A program made the position numbers and the translations under genes. Positions 19,276 through 32,244 of a stretch of DNA of 32,762 nt are shown one piece after another. Below the pieces are notes generated by a model. That model saw only the letters and a list, made by a program, of their open reading frames with translations. It searched no databases and was not told where the DNA came from. Source of the DNA: an uncultured bacterium (GTDB lineage: Bacteria > Latescibacterota > UBA2968 > UBA8231); assembly GCA_937942165.1 (NCBI GenBank), contig CALDFW010000124.1:1-32762 (forward strand), read 5' to 3'. Within the stretch, counting starts at the first letter, position 1. Every line of letters begins with the position of its first letter.

Positions 19276-20937
19276 CTACCAGGTAGGACAAACACCCAGC
19301 TGAGGATGGGCCTGTTGGCGGTTGATATCGCTGATCCGGATGCCGCTTTCGCCGTAGTTTATGACGGCCATATTGGCACGCCCCACTTTCGATTCGGTCA
19401 AATCTGCAGTGCTGTTTAGAAGTTTTTCTCCGGTTACAACCTTCACGGCGAGGAGGTCGAATAGCGCTTCGATTAGCGTGCGGCGTCTCACGCGTATTTC
19501 GTTTGACTTGTGGCTCTGAGCGTGCTGTTTGAGCACTTGTTTTTGCTGGATGTAATTGGTGTTGTGCGATGCTGTGAGGACTTCTGCTGTGGTAAGGCCC
19601 CAGCCCATTTGTGGGGTTTCCTGCAAGAAGTAGTTCTCCGCGCGCATTTTAAGTGCGACTTGTTGGACATCTTCAAAAAATTGAGGATACATACGCAGCA
19701 GATTTGCGCTGGTAATTTTGAGGAGTTTGCCGTCGAGGATTGCGCGCTGGATTCGAGGGACCATGACCAGAGAGAGGCCCTGCTCTTCTGCTTGGTCTAG
19801 GAGCGAACCAACCACGGGATCGCGGAGCTTCTTTGCCAATTGTCGCTCTATGCTCAGGCGATCTTCTGGAATGATCTGAAGGCCGAGATTGTTTTCCAGG
19901 TGATCCAACGTGATGAGATGGGTCAGCGAGTTTAACCGATCCTCAGCAGAGGGGACGGCTTTCGTTTGCTCCTCACTCTCGTCTTCTGCTATGGGTTCGT
20001 CTTGCTGGTCTTTTCGTCCCTGTTTTCTCTGACTAAACCGTTCTCGTGCTCGCTTTTTGCGCTCTTCTATCCTGCGCTCTCGCTCTTTTAAATTGATTGT
20101 CCGATCCGCAGCGGACGGTGAGTTTCGACGGGTCTCTTCTGGTCCATCTTTCGCAGTAGCTTCTTCTTTCGGATTTTTATCCTCTTGGTCAGTTTCATCC
20201 TCAACGGGAAAGAGTGAATCCCCGTCTTCTTCAGAGCCGTATTCATCTTCTTCGACGGGCCATAGATCGTCCGTTTTATCGGGCGACTCTCCGTCGTTAC
20301 GGTCCTGCTTGGACTTTTCTCTTTTCCCAATGGCGCTCTCTTTGCGCTCGCCTTTGGTGGGTACAAATCCGGCCGTTTCCTCTCCGTCGTTACGGTCCTG
20401 CTTGGACTTTTCTCTTTTCCCAATGGCACTCTCTTTGCGCTCACCTTCGGTAGGGACAAACTCAGGCGTCTCTTCGCGATGGTGTCCGACGGATGGGGTA
20501 AACCCCGGCGTTTCCTCTGGGATGGGGTCTTCTGGTCGGTGAGGCCTGGACTCTGATGGTTCGAGCGATCGTTGGGAAAGCGAACTGCGGGAAGAAGTCG
20601 TCGAAGGATACTCGTCCTCAGTGCCGAATAGATCATCCGATGTATCCCCTTCAGAAAAGAGATCCTCTTCGCCGAAGGGGGCGTCGTCTTCCTGCGCCAG
20701 ATCTACACCCGACTCGGATTCGTTTTGTCCCAGCAGCGCGTCGATTCGATTCGCCATTGAAACTTCGACGTAAGGACGCGCAGTCAACAGTGCGCGTCTG
20801 GCCAAATCGCTCAACGGTTCGCCATCCTCAAAGGGGGGCAAGAGCTGGCCACACCATGCTTGCATGAGAAATTGCTTCTCTTCGCGCTGGATATCGTGGA
20901 GGCGCTTTTTTGAGTGAGGCGAGGCGTCGTCGTTCAT
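19276..20937 (-). CDS. large charged protein with a tandem duplication, unknown function
   Basis: I do not recognise this 553-aa protein. It has an N-terminal helical part (~1-70), a long low-complexity region (~72-330) rich in Glu, Asp, Ser, Lys and Pro, and a well-ordered-looking C-terminal domain (~330-553) with mixed helices and no known catalytic motif. Residues 156-186 and 187-217 are a 31-residue tandem repeat, with a third partial ETPGFTP start at 142. A basic helix (~283-308) suggests nucleic-acid or protein contact. No signal or membrane segment is seen, so it is cytoplasmic. Its start overlaps the upstream gene's stop by one base (TGATG), so the two are coupled. It converges on the oxidoreductase gene 24 bases away. 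Confidence 0.8.
   Translation of the reverse strand: MNDDASPHSKKRLHDIQREEKQFLMQAWCGQLLPPFEDGEPLSDLARRALLTARPYVEVSMANRIDALLGQNESESGVDLAQEDDAPFGEEDLFSEGDTSDDLFGTEDEYPSTTSSRSSLSQRSLEPSESRPHRPEDPIPEETPGFTPSVGHHREETPEFVPTEGERKESAIGKREKSKQDRNDGEETAGFVPTKGERKESAIGKREKSKQDRNDGESPDKTDDLWPVEEDEYGSEEDGDSLFPVEDETDQEDKNPKEEATAKDGPEETRRNSPSAADRTINLKERERRIEERKKRARERFSQRKQGRKDQQDEPIAEDESEEQTKAVPSAEDRLNSLTHLITLDHLENNLGLQIIPEDRLSIERQLAKKLRDPVVGSLLDQAEEQGLSLVMVPRIQRAILDGKLLKITSANLLRMYPQFFEDVQQVALKMRAENYFLQETPQMGWGLTTAEVLTASHNTNYIQQKQVLKQHAQSHKSNEIRVRRRTLIEALFDLLAVKVVTGEKLLNSTADLTESKVGRANMAVINYGESGIRISDINRQQAHPQLGVCPTW
20287..20472. repeat. two-copy in-frame tandem repeat of 93 bp
   Basis: Copies at 20287-20379 and 20380-20472. 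About the first 65 bases of each (plus-strand order) are almost identical; the last ~28 have diverged more. The period is exactly 31 codons, so the reading frame is kept. The high identity indicates a recent duplication by slippage or unequal recombination. Confidence 0.9.
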
Positions 20938-21932
20938 CAGGGAATTAACGTTGGGTAAACGCCGGGCCAGAGGCGGCGGGACGTGCGCCAGCGGGGCAGG
21001 CCCACTTTGCCGTGAATGGCAATCTTCCGATCCTTCTGAACGGTGTAGACGCTGTGGTGAACGCCCATTCCCTTATCGTACTGGGTCGTAGTGCAGGAGT
21101 TGCAATTTTGCTCGAATAGGTGCTCCTGCAAGGCCTCTCCGCATATGATGCGGTCGTATATGTCTTCTAACGCACTTTTTTGCACGCTGGAGCTGCTGGG
21201 AAGGGACCAGGTTCGAGCATAATTTGAGAGTCGTTTTTCTGGGCTGCGAAGCGTGCAGTTGAGATAATCAATCTCACAGAGCACCCATTGGGATCTCTCC
21301 AGCGGCTCTGAGTAAAATGATTGCTCCTCATACCAGTTGGGCACGCTGCGTCGCTTGTAAAAATAAGCGTCAAAGCGGAGGCGGAGGTTTTCTATACTAC
21401 AGGGTAAACGCCCGTTTTCTCCGTCGCCTAACTCTTTGTGACGCATTAGAATAAGAGTTGAGGAGAACATCTTTTGTAGCGCGGGTAAATCACAGGCCTC
21501 CAGCGCGCTTGCCACATCCGTAAGCAGAAAGAGCCGGTCCAAAAACTCATCGAGTTCTCTATTGTGTCTGTCCGATTCTTCCGGAGAGAACACGCACCCG
21601 ATAATCGTTTCGAGCTGCTCGGGGGGGATAAAGCGCTCCATAAAGATCCACCGCGCTCGGTCTCGATTGGAAAGAGTGGCTATTTCAGGCGTTGGACCGT
21701 CAAAACGAACGGGGGTGCGGACGGGCGGTTTCGCAGGTCCGAGTTCTCTGTCGAGAGGCTCGTCAGTCTCTTGGCTGCGGTGCGATGGGCTGGGCGTATG
21801 AAAGGAGACGCCTTGGTCTATGAGCGGTTTGAGGTGTTGCCCCAATTCTTGGGCCAGCTGCTCGTCCTCAAGAGGACCGAATTGTCCATTTTCGAGGTCT
21901 ATAATAGCCTGAGCGAGTTCGTCTCGATTCAC
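20937..21932 (-). CDS. conserved-looking cytoplasmic protein of unknown function
   Basis: I do not recognise this 331-aa protein. Residues ~1-40 are helical and acidic, ~42-75 form a Pro/Ser-rich linker, and ~85-331 look globular. A run of Cys residues (at about 144, 177, 219, 226, 264, 276 and 279) includes a Cys-x2-Cys pair in NCNSCTT that could bind metal. No signal or membrane helix is present. The start is GTG at 21932, the first plausible start after an in-frame stop. It is the first gene of a two-gene minus unit with the 553-aa protein and shares an AT-rich divergent promoter region with the STAS-GHKL gene, which suggests related function. Confidence 0.78.
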   Translation of the reverse strand: MNRDELAQAIIDLENGQFGPLEDEQLAQELGQHLKPLIDQGVSFHTPSPSHRSQETDEPLDRELGPAKPPVRTPVRFDGPTPEIATLSNRDRARWIFMERFIPPEQLETIIGCVFSPEESDRHNRELDEFLDRLFLLTDVASALEACDLPALQKMFSSTLILMRHKELGDGENGRLPCSIENLRLRFDAYFYKRRSVPNWYEEQSFYSEPLERSQWVLCEIDYLNCTLRSPEKRLSNYARTWSLPSSSSVQKSALEDIYDRIICGEALQEHLFEQNCNSCTTTQYDKGMGVHHSVYTVQKDRKIAIHGKVGLPRWRTSRRLWPGVYPTLIP

Positions 21933-22053: not shown

Positions 22054-22929
22054 GTGCAATTAGCCGTCAAAAACTCAAATTTAAATCCGCGTGTGGTCGA
22101 TGAGTTATTATCGGAATTCCTGAGTGGGATTCACGCTTCTACCGACCGCGCTGAAGTCGTGATAGACCTCGGTGCGCTGCGCTTTATTGACCCGTATGGA
22201 CTCGTAGCGCTGTGCCTTATGGGGCGATATGCGCGGACGGTCGTCCCGCGGGTTTGTTACCGCGTGCCGCCGGCCGTGCCGCTGCGCAGGTATTTAGGGC
22301 GGGTGCGCTTTGACCAAGCCCTAGAAGGTATTGAGTTAGAGGGCCCCGAGTTACTGGTCGATCAGGATCGCGAAAAGGTCGATAGTGAGTCGCTCTTGGA
22401 GCTGACTCGGATTCAGGCCCAGGCGGACGTTGAATCGCTGCTGGGACATATTGGTCTGCGCGTAGAGGCTATCCTGGCAGAAGAGTTGCTATATACTGCC
22501 GTGGAGATAAATCAGTTTAAAAACGTAATTGCCGAACTGTGTCATAACATACTGGATCACAGTATGAATTGGGGCTACGTAACGGCCCAGCGCTACATGG
22601 ATCCACGCTTGCGGAAAAAGTATGTAGTCATCGGCGTTGGAGATCTCGGCATCGGCATAAAAAAGAGCCTATCACAGCGCCACGACGTATCCGATTGGAC
22701 GCACGGTGCCGCTATTAAAAACTCGCTAAAGCAAAACTTTTCACGGGATGATAACCGCGGCCTCGGTCTGTATATCGTCAACCAGATATGCAATCGCTAT
22801 AGGGGTAGTTTGCACATGAGGACAGGGGATACGCGGCTTTATATACGCGGTCGAAATCAGTCAGAACATCCCTCCGTGCACTTTCCCGGAACTCAAGTAG
22901 CGATCGCACTCTACCAGCGCGATACATAG
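22054..22929 (+). CDS. STAS-GHKL fusion ATPase (anti-sigma/switch-type)
   Basis: The N-terminal part (~1-95) resembles a STAS domain (the VVIDLGALRFIDPYGL core at 35-50). A linker is followed by a GHKL ATP-binding domain with N-box Glu161/Asn165 (ELCHNILDH), G1 box GDLGIG (196-201), G2 box RGLGLYI (235-241) and a final Gly-Thr (279-280). No phosphoacceptor histidine domain is present, so it is not a standard histidine kinase; it is closer to serine kinases of partner-switching systems or to structural GHKL ATPases. The STAS site usually reading Asp-Ser-Ser-Gly here reads Asp-Pro-Tyr-Gly, so it lacks the phosphorylatable Ser/Thr. It starts with GTG (22054). A 49-aa membrane protein follows nine bases later. 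Confidence 0.82.
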   Translation: MQLAVKNSNLNPRVVDELLSEFLSGIHASTDRAEVVIDLGALRFIDPYGLVALCLMGRYARTVVPRVCYRVPPAVPLRRYLGRVRFDQALEGIELEGPELLVDQDREKVDSESLLELTRIQAQADVESLLGHIGLRVEAILAEELLYTAVEINQFKNVIAELCHNILDHSMNWGYVTAQRYMDPRLRKKYVVIGVGDLGIGIKKSLSQRHDVSDWTHGAAIKNSLKQNFSRDDNRGLGLYIVNQICNRYRGSLHMRTGDTRLYIRGRNQSEHPSVHFPGTQVAIALYQRDT

Positions 22930-22938
22930 GATTTTGCC

Positions 22939-23088
22939 GTGTTTGGTCAGCGCCACAAACCGCCGAAGCCACCCGGCTATGAGCCTTTTCTCATGGTGCT
23001 GTTTGCCGTGCTGATCGCTCTGCTCTTGACGGTCGGATATGGCGCGCTGATGGCGCTGAGCGAGCGAGCAAGCCAACCCCTCTACTAA
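22939..23088 (+). CDS. small single-pass membrane protein
   Basis: A 49-codon reading frame begins with GTG nine bases after the STAS-GHKL stop and ends with TAA at 23086-23088. A basic, proline-rich head (residues 2-16) leads into one clear membrane helix (about 17-40, ending in GYGALMAL) and a short polar tail. The positive-inside rule puts the N-terminus in the cytoplasm. An AGG lies about nine bases upstream of the start. No family is recognised; the spacing suggests cotranslation with the ATPase and possibly membrane recruitment of it. Confidence 0.65.
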   Translation: MFGQRHKPPKPPGYEPFLMVLFAVLIALLLTVGYGALMALSERASQPLY

Positions 23089-23156
23089 CCCCACATATTG
23101 ATGTGCTGGATTTCGCCTCTTCTCTATTTTGTGTAGTGGGTATCCTCAAAAGTAGC

Positions 23157-23185
23157 TTGACAGTTTGTTCTATCCCGCCTAAGCT
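23157..23185 (+). promoter_or_regulatory. candidate internal promoter before the STAS/wHTH-NurA-HerA unit
   Basis: A perfect TTGACA (23157-23162) is followed after 17 bases by TAAGCT (23180-23185), a poor -10. AGCTTA (23182-23187) and a TAAGCT about 16 bases later form short inverted arms that could be an operator. The gap 23089-23298 otherwise shows no gene. Confidence 0.4.
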
Positions 23186-23298
23186 TATTTAATTGAATCT
23201 ATTTAAGCTGCTCTTTGAGGCGAGTAGGGCCGATGCCTTATGCGCTGAGGGTTATCCTATGGGAACCAGCTTATGTCACTCCATTCAGGATAGGGTCC

Positions 23299-23892
23299 AT
23301 GCAAGAAGCGCCAGAGCATCCGGTGAACGCGTGCCAGATTCATCGCGGAGTGCCTTTTGTCTTCCAAGCGGAACAGGGCATTTTGAGCGGGCGTCCGAAG
23401 GGGGCTGCGCTGCTTGAAGCGCTCATGGCTCACTTACAGCTGTGCCAAGACAATACGGCGATCGCCTTGGATTTTGAACAGGTGCAGTTTGTCGATGTGT
23501 CGTGTGCTGATGAGATGCTTAACAAACTGCTGCTGCGTCTGCGCAGCGGAGAGCTGAAGAATCGCTTTGTGTTTATCGTCTCGGCCAATGCCTCTGTGCG
23601 AGAGACGGTTGAAGCGGTCCTTCAACTGCGCGATTTAGCCGTGTTGGCAGAGGATGGAGAGGGACAGGTTGAACTGCTGGGTGCGCTCAAGACACCCATG
23701 CGGGAGGCGCTGGACGTCTTGCTAGAGCGAAAATGCGCCACTTCTGCCGAAGTGTCAGAGCAGATCGATAAAAACGTCAATATCGTATGCAACCGACTCA
23801 ATGCCTTACAGCGACTCGGGTTGGTGTGCCGATTGCGCGACGGTTCCGTCGTGGGAGGGGGACGACAATACTTCTATGTATCAATTCTCTAA
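23299..23892 (+). CDS. STAS-like (DUF4325-type) protein with C-terminal winged helix
   Basis: The first ~130 residues resemble a DUF4325/STAS-like alpha-beta domain, with the core LDFEQVQFVDVSCADEML at about 57-74; Ser68 sits where the STAS phosphoacceptor serine would be. Residues ~133-197 look like a winged helix (ALDVLLERKCATSAEVSEQI, a recognition helix NIVCNRLNALQRLG, then a beta wing). So it may be a DNA-binding switch protein controlled by the GHKL ATPase upstream; this partnership is inference. I chose ATG 23299, which has AGGA eight bases upstream; the frame is open to a TTG at 23215. The next gene starts 17 bases inside its 3' end. Confidence 0.75.
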   Translation: MQEAPEHPVNACQIHRGVPFVFQAEQGILSGRPKGAALLEALMAHLQLCQDNTAIALDFEQVQFVDVSCADEMLNKLLLRLRSGELKNRFVFIVSANASVRETVEAVLQLRDLAVLAEDGEGQVELLGALKTPMREALDVLLERKCATSAEVSEQIDKNVNIVCNRLNALQRLGLVCRLRDGSVVGGGRQYFYVSIL

Positions 23893-24562
23893 ACGTCAGT
23901 TCTTCTGGGTGTGCACCTTGGTATTTTGCGCTGGGCTCGCAGTGGCACAGCAGCTGCGCGAGGGCACGCTGCGGGTGCAAGAAAGCGTGGAAAACATGCG
24001 CGACGCCCCTAACGGACGCAAGTTTGGCACGCTCTTAGAGGGCACTGAAATCGAAGAAATTTCTCGGGACGGAAAGTGGGTTCGCTTTCGCATCGAGGGG
24101 TGGATATGGGGCCCCTCGTTGGAGGGCTTTGTCGAGGAGCGGCCGCGGGAAGAAGCCGCCGCAGCCGAGCCCGCTCCCCGCCTGCCCTTACAGGATGCAA
24201 TGCCCCGCGCCAAACGGCTAGTAAACGAACAATACGGCACGTTCTATGGGCTGCATATAGACGCCGACTTGGAGCTGCTGCGCATCCGACTGCGAGTCGG
24301 AGACATTGGACAGGAGCGTTTGCGCGCTCGGCAGCGAGTCGTCATGAAAGCGATATGGGATTTGGTTGGTGACGAACTGGACAAGCCTATCACTCGCGTG
24401 CGCATAGAGACGAATCGGGCAGATGGCAGCGGTGCCGTTGGGACGATATTTGCCGAATGTCCCGTAGAGACGCTGGAAGTTGAAGAACTGTCCGAGGAGG
24501 AGTGGGCCCGCACCGTGCGCATTTCTGATGACGGAGGCCAATCGTGGGTAGACGAGCCTTAG
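23876..24562 (+). CDS. exported SH3-domain protein of unknown function
   Basis: A 228-aa protein with a signal peptide (about 1-25, hydrophobic core FFWVCTLVFCAGLA) and a bacterial SH3 domain (~28-85: initial LREGTLRVQE, NMRDAPNG, and GKWVRFRIEGWIWG at the end). The C-terminal half (~110-228) is a mixed alpha/beta region without a recognised motif. The ATG at 23876 overlaps the previous gene by 17 bases; earlier in-frame starts would put about 25 polar residues before the signal peptide. Finding an exported protein between a STAS/wHTH gene and nurA is odd, as NurA and HerA are cytoplasmic. It may be an independent passenger of the operon. Confidence 0.8.
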   Translation: MYQFSKRQFFWVCTLVFCAGLAVAQQLREGTLRVQESVENMRDAPNGRKFGTLLEGTEIEEISRDGKWVRFRIEGWIWGPSLEGFVEERPREEAAAAEPAPRLPLQDAMPRAKRLVNEQYGTFYGLHIDADLELLRIRLRVGDIGQERLRARQRVVMKAIWDLVGDELDKPITRVRIETNRADGSGAVGTIFAECPVETLEVEELSEEEWARTVRISDDGGQSWVDEP

Positions 24563-24652
24563 TCTATGCTGGTTCCGCGGAGAAAGCGCCACGGTATCGG
24601 ACGCGGTCGTTCCCGAGTTCTGAGAAAAGCTGTAGGGGGAAAGAAGGGGGCG

Positions 24653-25885
24653 ATGCTTGATCTATTTGCCGTAAAAAATCAAATCGATGAGATGGTCGCC
24701 GATGAATGCAGGGCGCAGGAAGACTTCCGCGAGAAGTTGGAAATGGCCGTGCAGGCGTATCGAGGCTGGCAGGCTGATTGGCAGACACTTGCTGAGAAGA
24801 TCGCCCGTTCGCGAACCTCTTGGCTCATGCCGGGCATCGTTGAAGGTCTCGACGTAACTCCGACCTGTCTACAGCGCCCGGAAAAGATCAGCATTGCGGC
24901 GACGGACGGATCGCAGATTTTCCCCGATCGACATGAGATTTCCTCCTGCTTCCTCATTAATATCGGCTATATCTTGCTCCACTACGGCACGGGCGAAAAA
25001 CCGCTGATGAGCAGCAAGCCCACCCTGTACTACCGCGAAGAAGAAATCTTTGAAGAGTGGGACGGCCGTCGAGTATTCGTCAATCGCGAGCTAGTGGGGA
25101 CCAAGCGCGGCCTGATGGAATTCAGCGAGCTGGCGGCTCTGTCACTGGCCGCGCAGGAGGCCGGCCACAGCGTGCTAGCCTGTTCGGACGGCACGCTCAT
25201 CCAGTGGAGTCTCGAGGGGAAACCGCACGATTTTAAAGACTATGTGCTCGGAGAGACCATGCGCGACTTTGACGCACTTGAAAAGGCGGGTCTGCCCGTG
25301 TGTGGCTACATCAGTCATCCGGGCAGTCAGGATGTGATCAACGCGCTGAAGCTGGGTCTCTGTCCGCAGGATACGGCTGACTGCGATCGCTGCCCGTGGC
25401 GACCGGAAAACCAGCTCGGTTGTTCGTCCGAAGAAAAGGAGGTGCTGCAGGCGCAGCTGTGGAACGGACGCGTGCCCTGTAGTCCACTCGATGGTATCAG
25501 TGATGCCGTGCTGATGCGACAGATCTTAAAGCCGGGTCAGCGCTCACCGGTGTTCCGCTCTTCGTCAAAAATACTCGAGTCCTACGGGCGGCACTGGATT
25601 CACTTTTTCTACGTGCACGTGGGCCAAGAAATTGGCCGCGTGGAGGTCCCCGAGTGGGTAGCGCAGGACGAGAGTATGCTCGAATTGGTGCACGCCTGCA
25701 TTTGCGATCAGGCCGAAAAGGGTCAGGGTTATCCAGTGGCCCTGTCCGAAGCGCATGAACGGGCGGTGGTCCGCAGTGCCGACCGAGAGTCGTTTTACCG
25801 TTTTTTGCGCGATACGTACGTCAAGAACGATATGCGTGCCCACATTTCAACAAAGAGTTTTAAAAAGCGCCATGTCGGTATATAA
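24653..25885 (+). CDS. nurA: NurA-family nuclease
   Basis: NurA is a Mn-dependent 5'-3' exonuclease/endonuclease that pairs with the HerA translocase to resect DNA ends. The motifs fit: ATDGSQ with metal-binding Asp85, CSDGTLIQW with Asp179, YISHPGS (about 219-225), a late YPVALSEAHERAV with His368, and a basic C-terminal tail with Lys401/Lys404. An insert with four cysteines (Cys237, Cys244, Cys247, Cys257) could bind zinc or an iron-sulfur cluster. I chose the ATG at 24653 (410 aa), where the sequence begins to look like NurA; an ATG at 24566 would add a 29-residue Arg/Lys-rich tail and cannot be excluded. The HerA partner is two genes downstream. Confidence 0.88.
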   Translation: MLDLFAVKNQIDEMVADECRAQEDFREKLEMAVQAYRGWQADWQTLAEKIARSRTSWLMPGIVEGLDVTPTCLQRPEKISIAATDGSQIFPDRHEISSCFLINIGYILLHYGTGEKPLMSSKPTLYYREEEIFEEWDGRRVFVNRELVGTKRGLMEFSELAALSLAAQEAGHSVLACSDGTLIQWSLEGKPHDFKDYVLGETMRDFDALEKAGLPVCGYISHPGSQDVINALKLGLCPQDTADCDRCPWRPENQLGCSSEEKEVLQAQLWNGRVPCSPLDGISDAVLMRQILKPGQRSPVFRSSSKILESYGRHWIHFFYVHVGQEIGRVEVPEWVAQDESMLELVHACICDQAEKGQGYPVALSEAHERAVVRSADRESFYRFLRDTYVKNDMRAHISTKSFKKRHVGI

Positions 25886-25942
25886 ATTTTTTTTTGCTGC
25901 CCTTCACAGCGCGCGGACTGAGGCTAAATTGGGAGGTCATAG

Positions 25943-26599
25943 GTGAGCACGATAGGGGAATCATCTAATCCGCTGAGTCGTTTTATGAGCGACGAATCGA
26001 ATGCGATCAATGCGTCGTCTGGCCCAGAGCGATCCCACGTGGGTGAAGTCGTGGAGAGTAGTACGACTGAGCTTGTTGCCGAAGCGCGTCAGCTACACGG
26101 AGCACCGTCTTTTGGACAGTTTGTTCGCGTGGATTCGGAGGTGCCTATTGTCGGCATCGTGTTTAACGTCTTCACCCATTCGATTGAACCCAACCGAAGG
26201 CCCACTGCCTACGGTAAGACGGAAGACGAGCTGCGCCTAGAGCAGCCGCAAATCTTCGAGCTGCTGCGCACGGAGTTTCAGGCGCTTGTTATTGGCTACC
26301 TAGACGAGATGGGTCCCGTGCAGATCTTGCCGCCTCAGCCGGCGCGTATTCACAGCTTTGTGCACGTATGTAGCGAAGATCAAATTCGCGCCTTTACGCA
26401 TACAGACGACTACATGCGCTGCATACTCAATACGGTAAAGGTCCCTACGGACGAATTGCTCATTGCCGCACTGCGTCAAACCATGCGCGCGCACGGGGGC
26501 GATCGCGCCTATTTAGTGCGCATGGGTAAAGAGCTTTCACGCCTGCTCGGAGACGACTACGATCGCCTTAGTTCGATCGTGCGTCGAGCGGCTTATTGA
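25943..26599 (+). CDS. HerA-associated conserved protein (HAS-barrel-like)
   Basis: A 218-aa cytoplasmic protein of the type that sits beside herA and nurA in several bacteria, notably cyanobacteria. After a polar head (1-30), residues ~32-95 look like a HAS-barrel: GEVVESSTTELVAEA, then SFGQFVRVDSEVPIVGIVFNV. A helical region follows with the LLRTEFQALVIGY and PPQPARIHSFVHVC stretches, and the C-terminus is a helical bundle (LVRMGKELSRLLGDDYDRLSSIVRR). HAS-barrels in HerA help dock NurA, so it could be an adaptor; the precise role is not known to me. The GTG start has a GGGAGG site six bases upstream. It ends one base before the HerA ATG. Confidence 0.75.
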   Translation: MSTIGESSNPLSRFMSDESNAINASSGPERSHVGEVVESSTTELVAEARQLHGAPSFGQFVRVDSEVPIVGIVFNVFTHSIEPNRRPTAYGKTEDELRLEQPQIFELLRTEFQALVIGYLDEMGPVQILPPQPARIHSFVHVCSEDQIRAFTHTDDYMRCILNTVKVPTDELLIAALRQTMRAHGGDRAYLVRMGKELSRLLGDDYDRLSSIVRRAAY

Positions 26600-26600
26600 G

Positions 26601-28301
26601 ATGGGTACTATGGCTAAGAGAGAAAATGGCACAGGGGTATATAAGTCGCTGCGCGGCCAGGAAATCGGGGTCATAACGCGCGGGTCTCTGGTCGAGGGGC
26701 TCGAGATGAAACTCGATGCGAGACAGAACATAGAAGACATGAAAGCGGGTAAGTTCGTGGTTATCGAGGGCGATAAAAACGACTTTTTCTCCATGGTTAC
26801 GGATATGCGGCTGGACGCGAATAATCAGGAGGTCTTATTGCATCCCCCGCGTCAAGAAGACGAGTTGCTGCGTCAGGTGCTCAGTGGGACGAGCACGTAC
26901 AACATCGTGTCGCTGCGCCCGATGCTCATGATGCCCAAAGGAGCCGACGGTGATGAGGGACCGCGTCCGGTGAAGGCCATTCCCTCGCATTTTTCACAGG
27001 TCCAAGACGCAATGGAAGAGGACGTCGCAAAGATATTTGGGCGAGAGGGGGACGAGCAGGGCAAGTACTTTTCCATCGGCTCTCCGCTCGATATGGACAC
27101 TCCCGTCTGCATCGATATGGTGCGTTTTGCCGAGCGGTCAAACGGGATCTTTGGCAAGACGGGAACGGGCAAATCCTTTTTAACTCGACTCGCGCTGTGC
27201 GGACTCATTCACTTTGATAAAGCCGTAAATCTCATTTTCGATATGCACAACGAGTACGGCTTTAAGGCGATGAAAGAAACGGGGCAGAGTAACTCGACCT
27301 TTGTGAAGGGCCTCAAGCAGCTTTTTGGAGAGCGGGTTGCCATCTTTTCTCTAGACCCACAGTCCACGCGCGCGCGCGGAGTGCAGCCCGATCACGAGGT
27401 CTATATCTCCTACGATCAGGTCACCGTAGACGATGTGGCTACGCTGCAGGACGAACTCAAGCTAAACCCAACGGCCGTTGAGTCTGCCTATCTGGTGTAC
27501 GCGATCTATAAGGATCGGTGGCTGCGCACGCTCCTGGCACAGGAGGGGCCCGACGTCGAGGAGTTCGCCAAGGAAATCGGCGCGCATCCCGGTTCACTTG
27601 TGGCCTTGCACCGCAAGCTTAAGCGCTTGGAAAACTTTCCCTTTATGGTGCAGAAAGGCCATGAAGATGGCGATGTTGTAGACCGGATTATGGAGTATCT
27701 GGACAGGGGAATTAACGTCGTGTTAGAATTTGGCCAGCAGACGAGCATGCTGTGCTATCTCTTGGTCGCCAATATTATTTCTCGCCGAATCCACGAGATG
27801 TACGTTAAAAAGAGCGAGCGCTTTTACTCGACGCAAAAGCCGGAAGATCAGCCTCGCCAGCTGATGATTACCATCGAGGAGGCGCATAAATTTCTCAACC
27901 CATCGGCGGCAAAGCAGACCATATTTGGGACGATCGCACGCGAAATGCGTAAATATTACGTATCCCTGCTGGTAGTCGATCAGCGGCCTTCGGGAATCGA
28001 TGACGAAGTCCTGTCGCAGATCGGCACGCGCATCACGGCGCTGCTCAACGATGAGAAAGACATCCAGGCCGTGCTTACGGGTGTGAGCGGCACGGACGGC
28101 TTGCGCAGCGTATTGGCTAGCCTGGACTCAAAGCAGCAGGCATTGGTCATCGGCCACGCGGTGCCCATGCCCGTGGTCATAAAGACCCGAGAGTACGGGG
28201 CGCAGTTCTACCGCGACATGGGCTGCCTCGACGACGTTCCCCCAGCAGAGCGCCGCGCTCAGGTTGAGAAAAAGACCAATGCGCTTTACGGGGATAACTG
28301 A
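26601..28301 (+). CDS. herA: HerA hexameric DNA translocase
   Basis: HerA is a bipolar FtsK/VirB4-like ATPase that forms hexameric rings and drives NurA in DNA end processing. Residues ~18-110 form the HAS-barrel (IGVITRGSLVEGLEMKL onward). The RecA-like core has Walker A GKTGTGKS (185-192), Walker B with Glu426-Glu427 in LMITIEEAH, and a VVDQRPSGID sensor stretch (458-467) whose Arg462 may serve in the arginine-finger region. The 566-aa length is usual for bacterial HerA. The start may be 26601 or the ATG nine bases later. It is probably the last gene of the operon starting at 23299. A YdcF-type gene follows after 49 bases. Confidence 0.93.
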   Translation: MGTMAKRENGTGVYKSLRGQEIGVITRGSLVEGLEMKLDARQNIEDMKAGKFVVIEGDKNDFFSMVTDMRLDANNQEVLLHPPRQEDELLRQVLSGTSTYNIVSLRPMLMMPKGADGDEGPRPVKAIPSHFSQVQDAMEEDVAKIFGREGDEQGKYFSIGSPLDMDTPVCIDMVRFAERSNGIFGKTGTGKSFLTRLALCGLIHFDKAVNLIFDMHNEYGFKAMKETGQSNSTFVKGLKQLFGERVAIFSLDPQSTRARGVQPDHEVYISYDQVTVDDVATLQDELKLNPTAVESAYLVYAIYKDRWLRTLLAQEGPDVEEFAKEIGAHPGSLVALHRKLKRLENFPFMVQKGHEDGDVVDRIMEYLDRGINVVLEFGQQTSMLCYLLVANIISRRIHEMYVKKSERFYSTQKPEDQPRQLMITIEEAHKFLNPSAAKQTIFGTIAREMRKYYVSLLVVDQRPSGIDDEVLSQIGTRITALLNDEKDIQAVLTGVSGTDGLRSVLASLDSKQQALVIGHAVPMPVVIKTREYGAQFYRDMGCLDDVPPAERRAQVEKKTNALYGDN

Positions 28302-28350: not shown

Positions 28351-29130
28351 ATGTTTCCACTTATTTCTAAACTGCTGACTCCGCTCGTCTCTCCAATGGG
28401 GCTGGCCTGTGCCCTGTGGGTCCTGGCGGCCCTTGCTCGTTTTTTCAAGCCGCGCTGGAGCGTGCCCCTGCTATGGGCTGGGGTGGTCCTCCTGTCCGCG
28501 TTCAGTTCGAAGTGGATAGGGAACGGACTGCTCCGACACCTGGAGCGACAATATCCCATTATCACGGTTGAAACCCTTCCGCCGGTCGATGTGATTGTCG
28601 TTCTGGGGGGGGCTACGCTACCGGCCATTGCCCCGCGCGTTCACGTAGAAGTTACAGAAGCGCATGATCGCCTCTTGCACGGCATGCGTTTATATCGAGC
28701 GGGCAAGGCGCCCTACATTCTGCTGAGCGGAGGGACCATCCCCGAACTGAGTGGGAGCTCGCAGAGCGAAGCCGAGCAGCTGCGCCTCCTTGCGCTCGAG
28801 TCGGGCATACCAGAGCGGGTGCTCCGCCTTGAGGCCGAGTCGCGCAACACCCATGAAAATGCGCTTTACAGCGCGCGGATAATGCGCACAGAGGGCTGGG
28901 AAAACGCGCTTTTAGTCACGTCGGCTTCCCATATGCCGCGCGCAGCGGCGACTTTTCGCGCCCAAGGCATACGTTTTTCCGCGGCGCCGACCGACGTGCG
29001 GATCGCGGATCAATCCTTCACCCCTAGACACTTAATCCCCACGGTTCTCGGACTCGAACGTTCAACTACTGCCGTCAAAGAGTTTGTTGGCTGGTGGGTC
29101 TACGTGCTGCGCGGGTGGATACAGGTTTAG
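28351..29130 (+). CDS. YdcF/ElyC-family (DUF218) envelope protein
   Basis: A 259-aa inner-membrane protein of the DUF218 family. Two membrane helices (~14-32 and 38-56) precede a Rossmann-like domain. Family motifs include VDVIVVLGG (78-86), LLSGGT (about 127-132) with a following acidic SEAE, and the ESRNTHEN block (~165-172). In E. coli, ElyC affects peptidoglycan and enterobacterial-antigen lipid-carrier metabolism, and YdcF binds S-adenosylmethionine; neither function can be assigned here. It ends in a four-base overlap with the RNase HI stop on the other strand, leaving no room for a terminator. Confidence 0.9.
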   Translation: MFPLISKLLTPLVSPMGLACALWVLAALARFFKPRWSVPLLWAGVVLLSAFSSKWIGNGLLRHLERQYPIITVETLPPVDVIVVLGGATLPAIAPRVHVEVTEAHDRLLHGMRLYRAGKAPYILLSGGTIPELSGSSQSEAEQLRLLALESGIPERVLRLEAESRNTHENALYSARIMRTEGWENALLVTSASHMPRAAATFRAQGIRFSAAPTDVRIADQSFTPRHLIPTVLGLERSTTAVKEFVGWWVYVLRGWIQV

Positions 29131-29591
29131 GGCTTCGCCTCTGGAACAAGCAGCTCGGGCTGATCGCCGCGCGAAAAGGCCTGGGCGATTTCGTCGCAGC
29201 GCTCATTGTCGGGGTCGCCGGCGTGTCCTCGCGTATACTCCCAGCGTATTTGAGGGGTGTTTAATGCATCTAATATGCGCCACAGATCCTGATTAAGGAC
29301 GGGTTTTTTTGCCGCGGTGCGCCAGCCGCGGCGCTTCCATCCGTGAATCCATTCGGTGATGCCCTTTAGCACGTACTCGCTGTCTGTTACCATGGTTAGG
29401 TCCGGCTCTTCACCCACGCATTTGAGGCCTTCTATAACGGCCTGAAGCTCCATGCGATTGTTGGTGGTTTCCTCGGAAAATCCCCCAATTTCGCGCACCG
29501 TGCCATCTGCGTAGAGAATGCGCGCGGCCCAGCCGCCCGGTCCCGGATTGCCCGAACAGGCTCCGTCGCTGTAGATCGTCGTCTTACCCAC
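29127..29591 (-). CDS. rnhA: ribonuclease HI
   Basis: Cleaves the RNA strand of RNA-DNA hybrids, removing R-loops and primers. At 154 aa it has the standard bacterial length, and the four catalytic carboxylates are present: Asp9 (YSDGACSGNPGPGG), Glu48 (NNRMEL), Asp70 (VTDSEYV) and Asp133 (ERCDEIA). The flexible-loop His123 is also present. The basic handle region (WIHGWKRRGWRT) is present, so substrate binding should be normal. I chose GTG 29591, which has GGGGA five bases upstream; the frame stays open to 29714 but that part is leader with promoter and palindrome. It diverges from lpdA. Confidence 0.96.
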   Translation of the reverse strand: MGKTTIYSDGACSGNPGPGGWAARILYADGTVREIGGFSEETTNNRMELQAVIEGLKCVGEEPDLTMVTDSEYVLKGITEWIHGWKRRGWRTAAKKPVLNQDLWRILDALNTPQIRWEYTRGHAGDPDNERCDEIAQAFSRGDQPELLVPEAKP

Positions 29592-29614
29592 GTTAGTCCC
29601 CTGTAAACTGGTTG

Positions 29615-29634
29615 CGTGGCGCGAAATTGCCACG
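29615..29634. repeat. short inverted repeat in the rnhA leader
   Basis: CGTGGC, eight bases, then GCCACG: 6-bp perfect arms. It lies between the rnhA promoter and its GTG, so it would be in the leader RNA of rnhA, and it is about 60 bases upstream of the lpdA start. It may be an operator or an RNA hairpin; the arms are short enough to be chance. Confidence 0.3.
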
Positions 29635-29649
29635 GTGTTGATTCTTGCT

Positions 29650-29677
29650 AAATTATTCCCTCTGCTGTGCGTGTCAA
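29650..29677 (-). promoter_or_regulatory. sigma-70-like promoter for rnhA
   Basis: On the minus strand a perfect TTGACA (29672-29677), 16 bases, then TAATTT (29650-29655). The start would be near 29643, about 52 bases before the GTG at 29591. Confidence 0.45.
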
Positions 29678-29692
29678 TCGAATGGAAAATAT

Positions 29693-31099
29693 ATGAGTCA
29701 AGATAGTGAAGCATACGATCTGGTTGTAATAGGTGGAGGGCCGGGGGGCTATACTGCAGCAGTGCGAGCGAGTCAGCTTGGAATGCGCGTAGCCCTTGTA
29801 GAGCGTGAAACGCTTGGGGGAGTGTGTCTCAATTGGGGCTGTATCCCCACGAAGGCTCTGCTGAAGCAGGCGGAGCTGTGGTCTCAGCTGTCTCGCGGTG
29901 AAGAATTTGGTTTTGCCCTGAGTGATGCGCGGTTTGACTGGCATAAGGTGGTGGCCCGTTCGCGCGATACGGCAGACGGACTGGCGCAGGGGGTTGCCTA
30001 TCTCATGAAGAAAAATGGGGTAGAGGTATACGCCGGAATGGGCCGTGTCACGCCGCTGCGCAGCGTCGAAGTGCGCGATGGCGAAGATGCCGTTGTCCAC
30101 GTGCTCGAGGCGAGTCACATCCTTATTGCCACGGGTAGCACGCCCCGTTCGCTGCCCGGTATCGAAATAGACAGCGAGCGGATTATCTCGAGTCGACAGG
30201 CCATGGTCTTAGAATCGATGCCCTCCGATATACTCATCGTCGGAGCCGGTGCGATAGGCGTTGAGTTTGCCTACTTCTTTAACGCGTTTGGCAGCCGGGT
30301 CACCCTGTTGGAATCGCTCCCGCAGATTCTTCCCAGAGAGGACGGAGAGGCCGCTGAGGAGCTGCGTGCCAGTTTGGAACGCCAGGGCGTAGCGATAGAG
30401 ACGGATGCGCGCGTGCAGGGCGTCCAGGTGGAGTCGGACGGTGTGCACGTGGACTTTGAGACGCCAGCCGGAACGAGAGAGGCCACGGTAGAGCGGGTGC
30501 TGATGGCCGTTGGCGTCAGCGCACAGAGTGCGGGGTTAGGCTTAGAGGCACTGGGCGTGCGCTTGCGAGACGGTGCGATCGCAGTAGACGAACGCCAGCA
30601 GACTTCTGTCGAAGGAATCTGGGCCATCGGCGACGTGGCGGGGCCTCCTCAGCTGGCGCACGTGGCGTCGGCAGAAGGCATAGCAGCCGTCGAGTTTATG
30701 GCTGGGAGAAGTCGTCCCGGCGTCGACCGCAGCGCGGTCCCCAGCTGTATTTATAGCCATCCACAGGTCGCCAGCGTGGGGATGAGCGAAGAGCAGGCTC
30801 GCGAAAAGGGTATAGAGATTAAGGTCGGGCGTTTCCCCTTTGCCGCAAGTGGCAAAGCGCGTGCCGCAGGCGAGACAGAGGGCTTTGTGAAGCTCGTATT
30901 CGGCTCCCGCTATGGCGAACTCCTCGGCGGCGTCGTCGTTGGAGCCGAGGCCACAGAGTTAGTGGGCGAGTTGGCACTCGGCCTTAGACTGGAGGCCACG
31001 TATGAAGAGTTGCTGCATACGATCCACGCACACCCGACCATGGCAGAGGGGATTATGGAGGCTGCGGGGGAAGCATTTGGCGAGGCGATTAATATCTGA
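29693..31099 (+). CDS. lpdA: dihydrolipoyl dehydrogenase
   Basis: This flavoprotein is the E3 subunit that reoxidises dihydrolipoamide in the 2-oxoacid dehydrogenase complexes or the glycine cleavage system, using NAD. FAD-binding GGGPGGY lies at 14-20, the redox-active disulfide is Cys45/Cys50 in GGVCLNWGC, a second dinucleotide fold (IVGAGAIGVEFA) lies near 180-191, and the C-terminal catalytic pair is His447/Glu452 in HAHPTMAE. The 468-aa length is typical. I chose ATG 29693 over a frame open to 29645. No E1 or E2 gene is adjacent, so the partner complex is encoded elsewhere. Confidence 0.95.
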   Translation: MSQDSEAYDLVVIGGGPGGYTAAVRASQLGMRVALVERETLGGVCLNWGCIPTKALLKQAELWSQLSRGEEFGFALSDARFDWHKVVARSRDTADGLAQGVAYLMKKNGVEVYAGMGRVTPLRSVEVRDGEDAVVHVLEASHILIATGSTPRSLPGIEIDSERIISSRQAMVLESMPSDILIVGAGAIGVEFAYFFNAFGSRVTLLESLPQILPREDGEAAEELRASLERQGVAIETDARVQGVQVESDGVHVDFETPAGTREATVERVLMAVGVSAQSAGLGLEALGVRLRDGAIAVDERQQTSVEGIWAIGDVAGPPQLAHVASAEGIAAVEFMAGRSRPGVDRSAVPSCIYSHPQVASVGMSEEQAREKGIEIKVGRFPFAASGKARAAGETEGFVKLVFGSRYGELLGGVVVGAEATELVGELALGLRLEATYEELLHTIHAHPTMAEGIMEAAGEAFGEAINI

Positions 31100-31143
31100 C
31101 GGCAAGCCCAGCGGGGGTAACCGCCTTTACACGGAAGGACGAT

Positions 31144-32244
31144 ATGAGCGAACAGGATTTCCCCACGTATGAGGGCATCGGCGTGCGGCCGCTGATAAAT
31201 GCCAAGGGCACCTACACGATTATCAGCGGTTCGGTTGTGCTGCCTCAGGTGCGACAGGCGATGTACGAAGCGTCCCAGCGCTACGTGCATTTGGAGGAGT
31301 TAATGGAAGCGGTCGGCGCGAGGATTGCCGAATTGATGGAGTGCGAATGGGGCCTCGTAACCAACGGCTGCGCGGCTGCGCTGTGCCAGATTACGGCCGC
31401 CTGCGTGGCCGGGACCGATCCCGAAAAAATGGCCCGATTGCCCGATACGCGGGGAATGAAGAATGAGGTCATCGTGCAGAAGAGCCATCGCCACACGTAC
31501 GATCACGCCGTGCGCATGGCGGGCGTCGATTTAATTGAGGTCGTTACGCGCGCTGATTTAGAGTCTGCCATAAGCGACCGAACGGCCATGCTCTTGGTTT
31601 TTGGTGACGCCGCCGAGCGCGGTGAAATTTCGGTACGCGATATGGCAGAAATCGGGCACGCTCACGGCATTCCGACCTTTGTAGATGCGGCGGCTGAGCG
31701 TCCAGACGTCCCCAACTGGTACTTGGAGCAGGGCGTTGATGCGGTCGGTTATAGCGGGGGAAAATGTCTGCGAGGACCGCAGGCAGCTGGTCTGGTTCTC
31801 GGGTGCAGGGAATTGCTGCAGGCAGCTTTTATCAACGGAGCACCTCACCATGCGCTGGGTCGTCCTATGAAAGTGGGAAAAGAAGAGATCATGGGCCTAC
31901 TCGCTGCCGTTGAGCAGTGGGTTGTGCGCGATCATCAGGCCGAGTGGAAAGCCTGGGAAGAGCGCCTGCAGAAAATCGTGGACGTGGTGGGTCAATATAC
32001 GACGGTCCAGACGTCTATTCGCCCACCGGGGCGTTCTAACGTAGCTCCCGTTCTATCCGTAGAGTGGGATCCGGAGAAGTTGGGTATAAGCGGCGGTGAA
32101 GTGGGACGTAAGCTGTCTGAGGGAACGCCGCGCATTGAGGTTTTTAACGGCGCAGGCGGTTTTTCCGTCATGCCTTATATGATGCAGGAAGGCGATGCCG
32201 AGGTCTTGGCTGACCGCTTAGAAGAGATCTTTTCGGGCATATAG
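31144..32244 (+). CDS. SelA-like PLP-dependent enzyme
   Basis: A fold-type I pyridoxal-phosphate protein of the SelA-like group, which includes selenocysteine synthase and D-glucosaminate-6-phosphate ammonia lyase (DgaE-type). The PLP lysine is Lys207 in GYSGGKCLRGPQ, with Asp181 (TFVDAAAE) to hold the pyridine nitrogen and His116 or His118 (KSHRHTYDH) as possible stacking residues. At 366 aa it lacks the N-terminal extension of true SelA, and no selB, selD or tRNA-Sec is seen. An amino-sugar or amino-acid lyase is therefore more likely than selenocysteine synthesis. It has a GGAAGGA site five bases before the ATG. A 100-aa gene starts 11 bases after its stop. Confidence 0.87.
   Translation: MSEQDFPTYEGIGVRPLINAKGTYTIISGSVVLPQVRQAMYEASQRYVHLEELMEAVGARIAELMECEWGLVTNGCAAALCQITAACVAGTDPEKMARLPDTRGMKNEVIVQKSHRHTYDHAVRMAGVDLIEVVTRADLESAISDRTAMLLVFGDAAERGEISVRDMAEIGHAHGIPTFVDAAAERPDVPNWYLEQGVDAVGYSGGKCLRGPQAAGLVLGCRELLQAAFINGAPHHALGRPMKVGKEEIMGLLAAVEQWVVRDHQAEWKAWEERLQKIVDVVGQYTTVQTSIRPPGRSNVAPVLSVEWDPEKLGISGGEVGRKLSEGTPRIEVFNGAGGFSVMPYMMQEGDAEVLADRLEEIFSGI

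Follow-up and report, generated by a model that had tools for sequence, protein, structure and literature searches.

Gene order and promoter of the HerA-NurA locus

We analyzed a stretch of 32,762 nucleotides (the window), which is the whole of contig C124 of a metagenome-assembled genome (MAG) that is 74% complete; the relatives named from its phylum are likewise Latescibacterota MAGs, some of them deposited under the label Gemmatimonadetes. On the plus strand lie seven open reading frames (ORFs), encoding in order a kinase-like protein with STAS and GHKL domains (STAS-GHKL), a 49-amino-acid (aa) membrane protein, a protein with STAS and winged helix-turn-helix domains (STAS-wHTH), an exported SH3-like protein, the nuclease NurA, a HAS-barrel protein, and the translocase HerA (Table 1). 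The preliminary description of this DNA had listed these seven codirectional genes with the 210-base gap, and ORFs and strand, Pfam matches, and orthologues in other genera bear it out. Because all seven are kept in other genera, they are not chance ORFs. We refined three starts from orthologues (STAS-wHTH, ATG 23299; SH3-like, ATG 23876; NurA, ATG 24653), which leaves a 17-base overlap between the STAS-wHTH and SH3-like genes. Pfam identified the GHKL, NurA, HAS-barrel, and HerA domains of the window proteins clearly and both STAS domains weakly. Together, Pfam and locus comparison identify the NurA and HerA/DUF87 ATPase genes as a HerA-NurA locus, with end resection as its predicted activity; the HAS-barrel gene sits between nurA and herA wherever a locus holds both. 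The description of the fourth product as an exported SH3 protein stood in part: the hydrophobic N-terminal segment is there and orthologues match SH3_3 weakly (1e-4 to 5e-3), but a domain search of the window copy gave no SH3 match.

Table 1. Features of the locus in window coordinates.
Feature	Position	Strand	Basis
CapK-like STAS-GHKL kinase, 291 aa, without N-terminal HTH	22054..22929	+	HATPase_c 1.5e-8, weak STAS_2
49-aa single-span membrane protein, MFG.H.PPKPP.. motif	22939..23088	+	family-wide orthologues
210-base gap, 49-aa gene to STAS-wHTH start	23089-23298		
-35 element TTGACA of repressor operon	23157..23162	+	TTGAC[AC] here in 25/25 loci
Probable -10 element TAAGCT, 17-bp spacer	23180..23185	+	comparative
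Predicted operator TTAA-N10-TTAA, TTAATTGAATCTATTTAA	23189..23206	+	conserved palindrome within 210-base gap
CapS-like STAS-wHTH repressor, 197 aa, Ser68 predicted phosphorylation site	23299..23892	+	PDB profile matches to CapS
Exported SH3b-like protein	23876..24562	+	N-terminal hydrophobic segment; weak SH3_3 in orthologues
NurA nuclease	24653..25885	+	Pfam NurA 2.2e-32
Stand-alone HAS-barrel protein, 218 aa	25943..26599	+	Pfam HAS-barrel 9.9e-7
HerA hexameric DNA translocase	26601..28301	+	DUF87/HerA 3.4e-29; PDB HerA matches incl. 4D2I

The most important feature absent from the preliminary description is the palindrome in the 210-base gap, a predicted operator. In the window both of its half-sites are exact and its spacer is degenerate. 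The consensus TTAAnTGAATTCAnTTAA, or a near match to it, lies upstream of the STAS-wHTH gene in all 34 carriers among the 64 genomes of the phylum that we compared. In 25 aligned loci the last half-site is exact throughout and the first in 24, and every locus has a TTGAC[AC] -35 box 26 to 32 nucleotides before the palindrome and a TA-rich -10 region, the conserved promoter pattern being TTGACA-N17. With the -35 box in this position, the palindrome lies over the point where transcription is expected to begin.

We then scanned all 64 genomes for the operator, allowing up to 2 mismatches and including a control pattern. The site was found at the STAS-wHTH promoter in 34/34 carriers (30 with at most 1 mismatch). 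Away from these promoters there was a single site with at most 1 mismatch (in G008), and the promoter site is usually the only one in its genome; the control pattern matched rarely outside the AT-rich genome G007. In the 46 loci that we fetched (704 kb in total, with some overlap between copies of the same genome), 25 of the 30 exact TTAA-N10-TTAA sequences are STAS-wHTH promoter sites, and the fetched herA/nurA loci without STAS-wHTH (L070 to L076, of which L070 and L071 are short) had no operator even at 3 mismatches. The chance expectation of TTAA-N10-TTAA in the window is 0.24, which makes a single sequence weak evidence. A generic promoter scan of the window detected neither promoter nor operator, and an inverted-repeat search confined to the window missed the palindrome, which comparison alone revealed. 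The strength of the case for the predicted operator is its positional conservation, not the match in any one sequence. Separately, genome G025 has a second operator-like palindrome (L148:1447-1464; G025:C758) that is identical to the one at its repressor promoter and precedes genes for uncharacterized proteins of 98 and 224 aa.

Likeness of the regulatory pair to CapK and CapS

A kinase-repressor pair of this composition, CapK/CapS, has been described (Chambers et al., EMBO J 2026, PMC13373217). CapS is a STAS-wHTH dimer that was shown by experiment to bind "wide" TTAA-N10-TTAA and "narrow" TTAA-N-TTAA sites. Once activated by single-stranded DNA (ssDNA), CapK phosphorylates Ser54 of CapS, which splits the dimer and lifts repression of the immune operon downstream. 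The aromatic residue that stacks on ssDNA is W68 in CapK and F54 in VapK, and deletion of the CapK HTH had no effect. In the 443 published loci capS always follows capK directly, and 348 of these pairs stand ahead of an immune operon, known or predicted (PMC13373217).

Our STAS-wHTH profile found CapS structures as its best PDB matches (9Z72/9Z73, 1.6e-8; 9Z71, 1.9e-4; assigned to CapS in PMC13373217). In Pfam its STAS domain fell below the cutoff and its wHTH was weak, and the structure model places a winged helix at the C terminus by fold. A Foldseek search with this moderate model (library to April 2026) returned winged helices, with no full-length STAS-wHTH chain and no CapS entry among the matches listed. 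We compared residues with the Enterobacter roggenkampii CapK/CapS pair (CapS WP_001567865.1). Ser68 is invariant in 17/17 STAS-wHTH proteins and aligns with CapS Ser54, and the Gly-Gly of the CapS wing is kept (G187, G188). In the kinase, E161 and N165 are invariant and correspond to the CapK active-site residues Glu214 and Asn218. Its structure model matched, at moderate confidence, SpoIIAA, RsbS, and TM1442 at the N terminus (target-normalized template modeling score of about 0.6 to 0.7) and histidine-kinase ATPase domains beyond it. PHROG 3364 also matches the kinase over its whole length (8.6e-25), so phages carry relatives; at tblastn sensitivity, a search of phage records returned none. 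Genome G030 has a kinase gene with one in-frame TGA (G030:C201:83068-83853), with repressor and operator still present.

The locus thus appears to share with CapK/CapS a STAS-GHKL kinase, a STAS-wHTH repressor with the conserved serine, and a repressor placed over its own operon, and the half-site and spacing of the predicted operator are identical to those of the wide CapS palindrome. It differs in several respects. The kinase is HTH-less; the 49-aa gene stands between kinase and repressor in the window's family (f1), and the two are unlinked in families f2 to f4; two wHTH contact residues are not those of CapS; only the wide palindrome occurs, upstream of the repressor gene; and the operon targeted, HerA-NurA, is stably inherited and not a recognized immune operon. 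On this analysis the two proteins are very probably a CapK-like and a CapS-like protein working in the CapK/CapS way. Because the pair departs from the published families in features that define them, we do not file it as a CapK/CapS member.

Other known systems share single parts with the locus. VapK-VapS-VapC (PMC13373217) has an HTH-less STAS-GHKL kinase too, but VapS lacks a wHTH and inhibits the VapC toxin; among ten window proteins scanned with Pfam, we found no PIN domain and no VapC. Deinococcus HerA-NurA (PMC9960219) likewise joins a HerA translocase to a NurA nuclease, and the window adds the stand-alone HAS-barrel gene and a dedicated upstream repressor. Deinococcus PprI-DdrO (PMC10904395) is alike in its working, relieving the repression of repair genes outside LexA when it senses ssDNA, but there a protease cuts the repressor, no kinase takes part, and as far as is known the proteins are not homologous. 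SpoIIAB-SpoIIAA and RsbW partner switches also set a GHKL kinase on a STAS serine, whereas here the output would be a DNA-binding repressor without a sigma factor. The preliminary description had not known the combination as a described system. That remains so for the pair with HerA-NurA, of which we found no description (subscription journals, preprints, and the CapKS supplementary loci were outside the scope of the search) and to which the main text of the CapKS paper makes no reference, mentioning neither HerA nor NurA; the regulatory pair itself, however, is of the CapK/CapS kind (PMC13373217).

Distribution and inheritance of kinase and repressor

The 34 of the 64 genomes that have STAS-GHKL are exactly those that have STAS-wHTH, with zero discordant cases; NurA was found in 41. 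In 33/33 testable genomes nurA follows the STAS-wHTH gene directly or, in genera g1 and g2, after the SH3-like gene; the 34th carrier, G044, stands outside this count because its contig is truncated. The STAS-GHKL gene adjoins the nurA operon in 17/34 genomes, all of family f1 (genera g1, g2, and g4; in G052 a contig break separates the two), and is unlinked in the other 17, which belong to f2, f3, and f4. In the closed genomes G039 and G038 it lies 1.7 Mb and more than 3 Mb from the operon, respectively, and in G027 about 35 kb. The expectation that both genes would neighbor herA/nurA in related genomes was thus confirmed for STAS-wHTH, but for STAS-GHKL only in one family.

One reading of these counts is that STAS-GHKL works on a sigma factor as a conventional partner switch of the anti-sigma type, its proximity to nurA in one family being incidental. 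Partner switches are classically built from STAS and GHKL domains, and the kinase is unlinked in half of its genomes. Yet at the six unlinked kinase loci that we read (predicted ORFs), no conserved STAS partner or sigma gene was recognized beside it, the kinase co-occurs exactly with STAS-wHTH, and homologous pairs are adjacent in Nostoc and Cytobacillus. We regard this reading as very improbable.

Pairwise distances of kinase and repressor correlate at r = 0.85, as expected if both are inherited vertically together. Three f1 genera, g3, g6, and g7, lack kinase, repressor, and operator and keep SH3-nurA-HAS-herA; orthologues of the 49-aa protein occur in g1, g2, g3, g4, and g6, including genera without the kinase. 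Since g3, g6, and g7 form a single clade of the HerA tree nested among carriers, the absence probably reflects one joint loss rather than several. These data bear on a second possibility, that STAS-wHTH represses the operon but answers a non-kinase signal, such as a ligand, while the kinase serves another pathway. The operator evidence concerns the repressor alone, and kinase genes outside f1 lack a conserved operator, which fits that possibility. Perfect co-occurrence of unlinked genes, the correlated distances, an invariant Ser68 at the phosphorylation site, and the CapK/CapS precedent argue against it, and we consider it quite unlikely.

Relatives outside the phylum and the proposed circuit

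For both proteins the nearest relatives on plasmids are encoded side by side in Nostoc, ahead of an E2/E1/JAB operon, and this context has been published as CapKS-type. The Nostoc kinase is HTH-less, as is one adjoining a CapS-like gene upstream of ThiF/DUF6527 on a Cytobacillus plasmid. A STAS-wHTH relative was present in 8 of about 320 other genomes sampled, including all three available genomes of one class. In G136 it heads a run of methylpurine glycosylase, UvrD-PDDEXK, Mre11-like, and Rad50-like genes; the run in G386 begins in the same way and then meets the contig end; and in G277 it lies with PHP-like, Mre11-like, and Rad50-like genes. At L131 and L134, in a class outside Latescibacterota, CapS-like genes stand at the head of such Mre11-Rad50-type runs. 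An unlinked STAS-GHKL kinase is present in G136 and G277, and a search of G386 found none. In G083, TTAA-N10-TTAA lies just upstream of a STAS-wHTH gene beside a restriction-modification-like set. The remaining relatives precede unrelated genes. The link of STAS-wHTH with DNA-processing genes recurs, in a small sample and as raw counts. In G164 (L136:5552-8820, minus strand), a Y-family DNA polymerase gene comes directly after a kinase-like STAS-GHKL match and a STAS-wHTH gene. In two genomes of a single genus, more distant STAS-wHTH genes are flanked by the genes of an AraC-type HTH protein and of a winged-helix AAA ATPase (L137:6365-10006 and L138:5526-9132; identified by Pfam in L137 and by matching layout in L138).

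We propose, with a probability of about 0.77, that a CapK/CapS-like kinase-repressor switch controls the nurA-HAS-herA DNA-end-processing operon. The observations behind it, namely gene order, promoter, predicted operator, co-occurrence, and key residues, are read from sequence. By homology, the STAS-wHTH dimer would bind TTAA-N10-TTAA where transcription of its own operon starts, keeping itself and nurA, HAS, and herA repressed. STAS-GHKL, linked or unlinked, would phosphorylate Ser68 in the STAS domain of the repressor, breaking the dimer and freeing the promoter as in CapK/CapS. The trigger is probably ssDNA left by DNA damage, a step of which we are less sure, since the stacking aromatic has no assignable position. 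Derepressed HerA-NurA would then process broken ends for repair and, because resection exposes ssDNA, the circuit may, more speculatively, reinforce itself. The preliminary suggestion that the ATPase senses a state and the STAS/wHTH protein controls the machine remains the best reading in its sensor and controller, but control is most likely transcriptional, through a repressor on an operator, and not direct. We rejected replacement of the SOS response: LexA is present in 57/64 genomes, most of the set, so the switch would run beside it.

Several points weigh against this proposal. The two AlphaFold models of the regulatory pair are moderate (predicted local distance difference test scores of 70 and 64). 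The kinase lacks the CapK HTH and the ssDNA-stacking Trp68, whose equivalent position is not assignable, and the DNA-contact residues N145 and K151, "absolutely conserved" in CapS, are not conserved in STAS-wHTH. The operon start is inferred, and the co-occurrence comes from related genomes and is largely one loss event inside f1.

The machine had been described as serving end processing or defense. In the latter case HerA-NurA would degrade invading DNA, switched on by the CapKS-like pair during infection. This would agree with the immune operons behind most published capKS loci (348/443), with the frequency of HerA in defense systems and the match of PADLOC HerA models to the window HerA, and with the immune-type E2/E1/JAB operon behind the nearest plasmid relative. 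However, HerA is single-copy and 68 to 88% identical across the class, its tree follows the families, neither mobile-element genes nor a further PADLOC component turned up in the locus, and other CapS-like genes head Mre11-Rad50-type repair operons. A defense purpose is therefore unlikely, and end processing for repair is favored because of vertical inheritance and single copy.

The proposal bears on how HerA-NurA bacteria control DNA end resection. If the proposed switch is real, HerA-NurA gains a dedicated transcription switch that responds to damage and whose operator and phosphorylation site are defined. CapK/CapS regulation would then reach beyond phage-defense operons into core repair genes, and the kinase gene could lie apart from that of its repressor, out of sight of any search confined to neighboring genes. 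What appears to be new is the stably inherited DNA-end-processing target of a CapK/CapS-like switch, the unlinked, HTH-less kinase, and the putative CapS-like genes heading Mre11-Rad50-type operons in another class. These data suggest that the switch also serves ordinary DNA repair, beyond phage-defense genes. A broader idea, possible but doubtful, is that CapK/CapS-like pairs are an old LexA-parallel damage response over double-strand-break processing machines, which would be HerA-NurA in Latescibacterota and operons of the Mre11-Rad50 type in another class; ssDNA from the induced machine would feed back on the kinase, and immune capKS would be a mobile offshoot.

Divergent from the kinase, two genes (19276-21932, minus strand) encode proteins of 331 and 553 aa that match neither Pfam nor PHROG and adjoin the locus throughout the family, even after loss of kinase and repressor. 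Within the 553-aa protein, a near-perfect segment duplication (PT.GERKESAIGKREKSKQDRNDGE; about 20300-20480, minus strand) was spotted by eye in the translation. Downstream (28351-32244) follow ElyC-like DUF218, RNase H, lipoamide dehydrogenase-like, and SelA-like genes, and the same genes lie beside the locus in g3 and g6.

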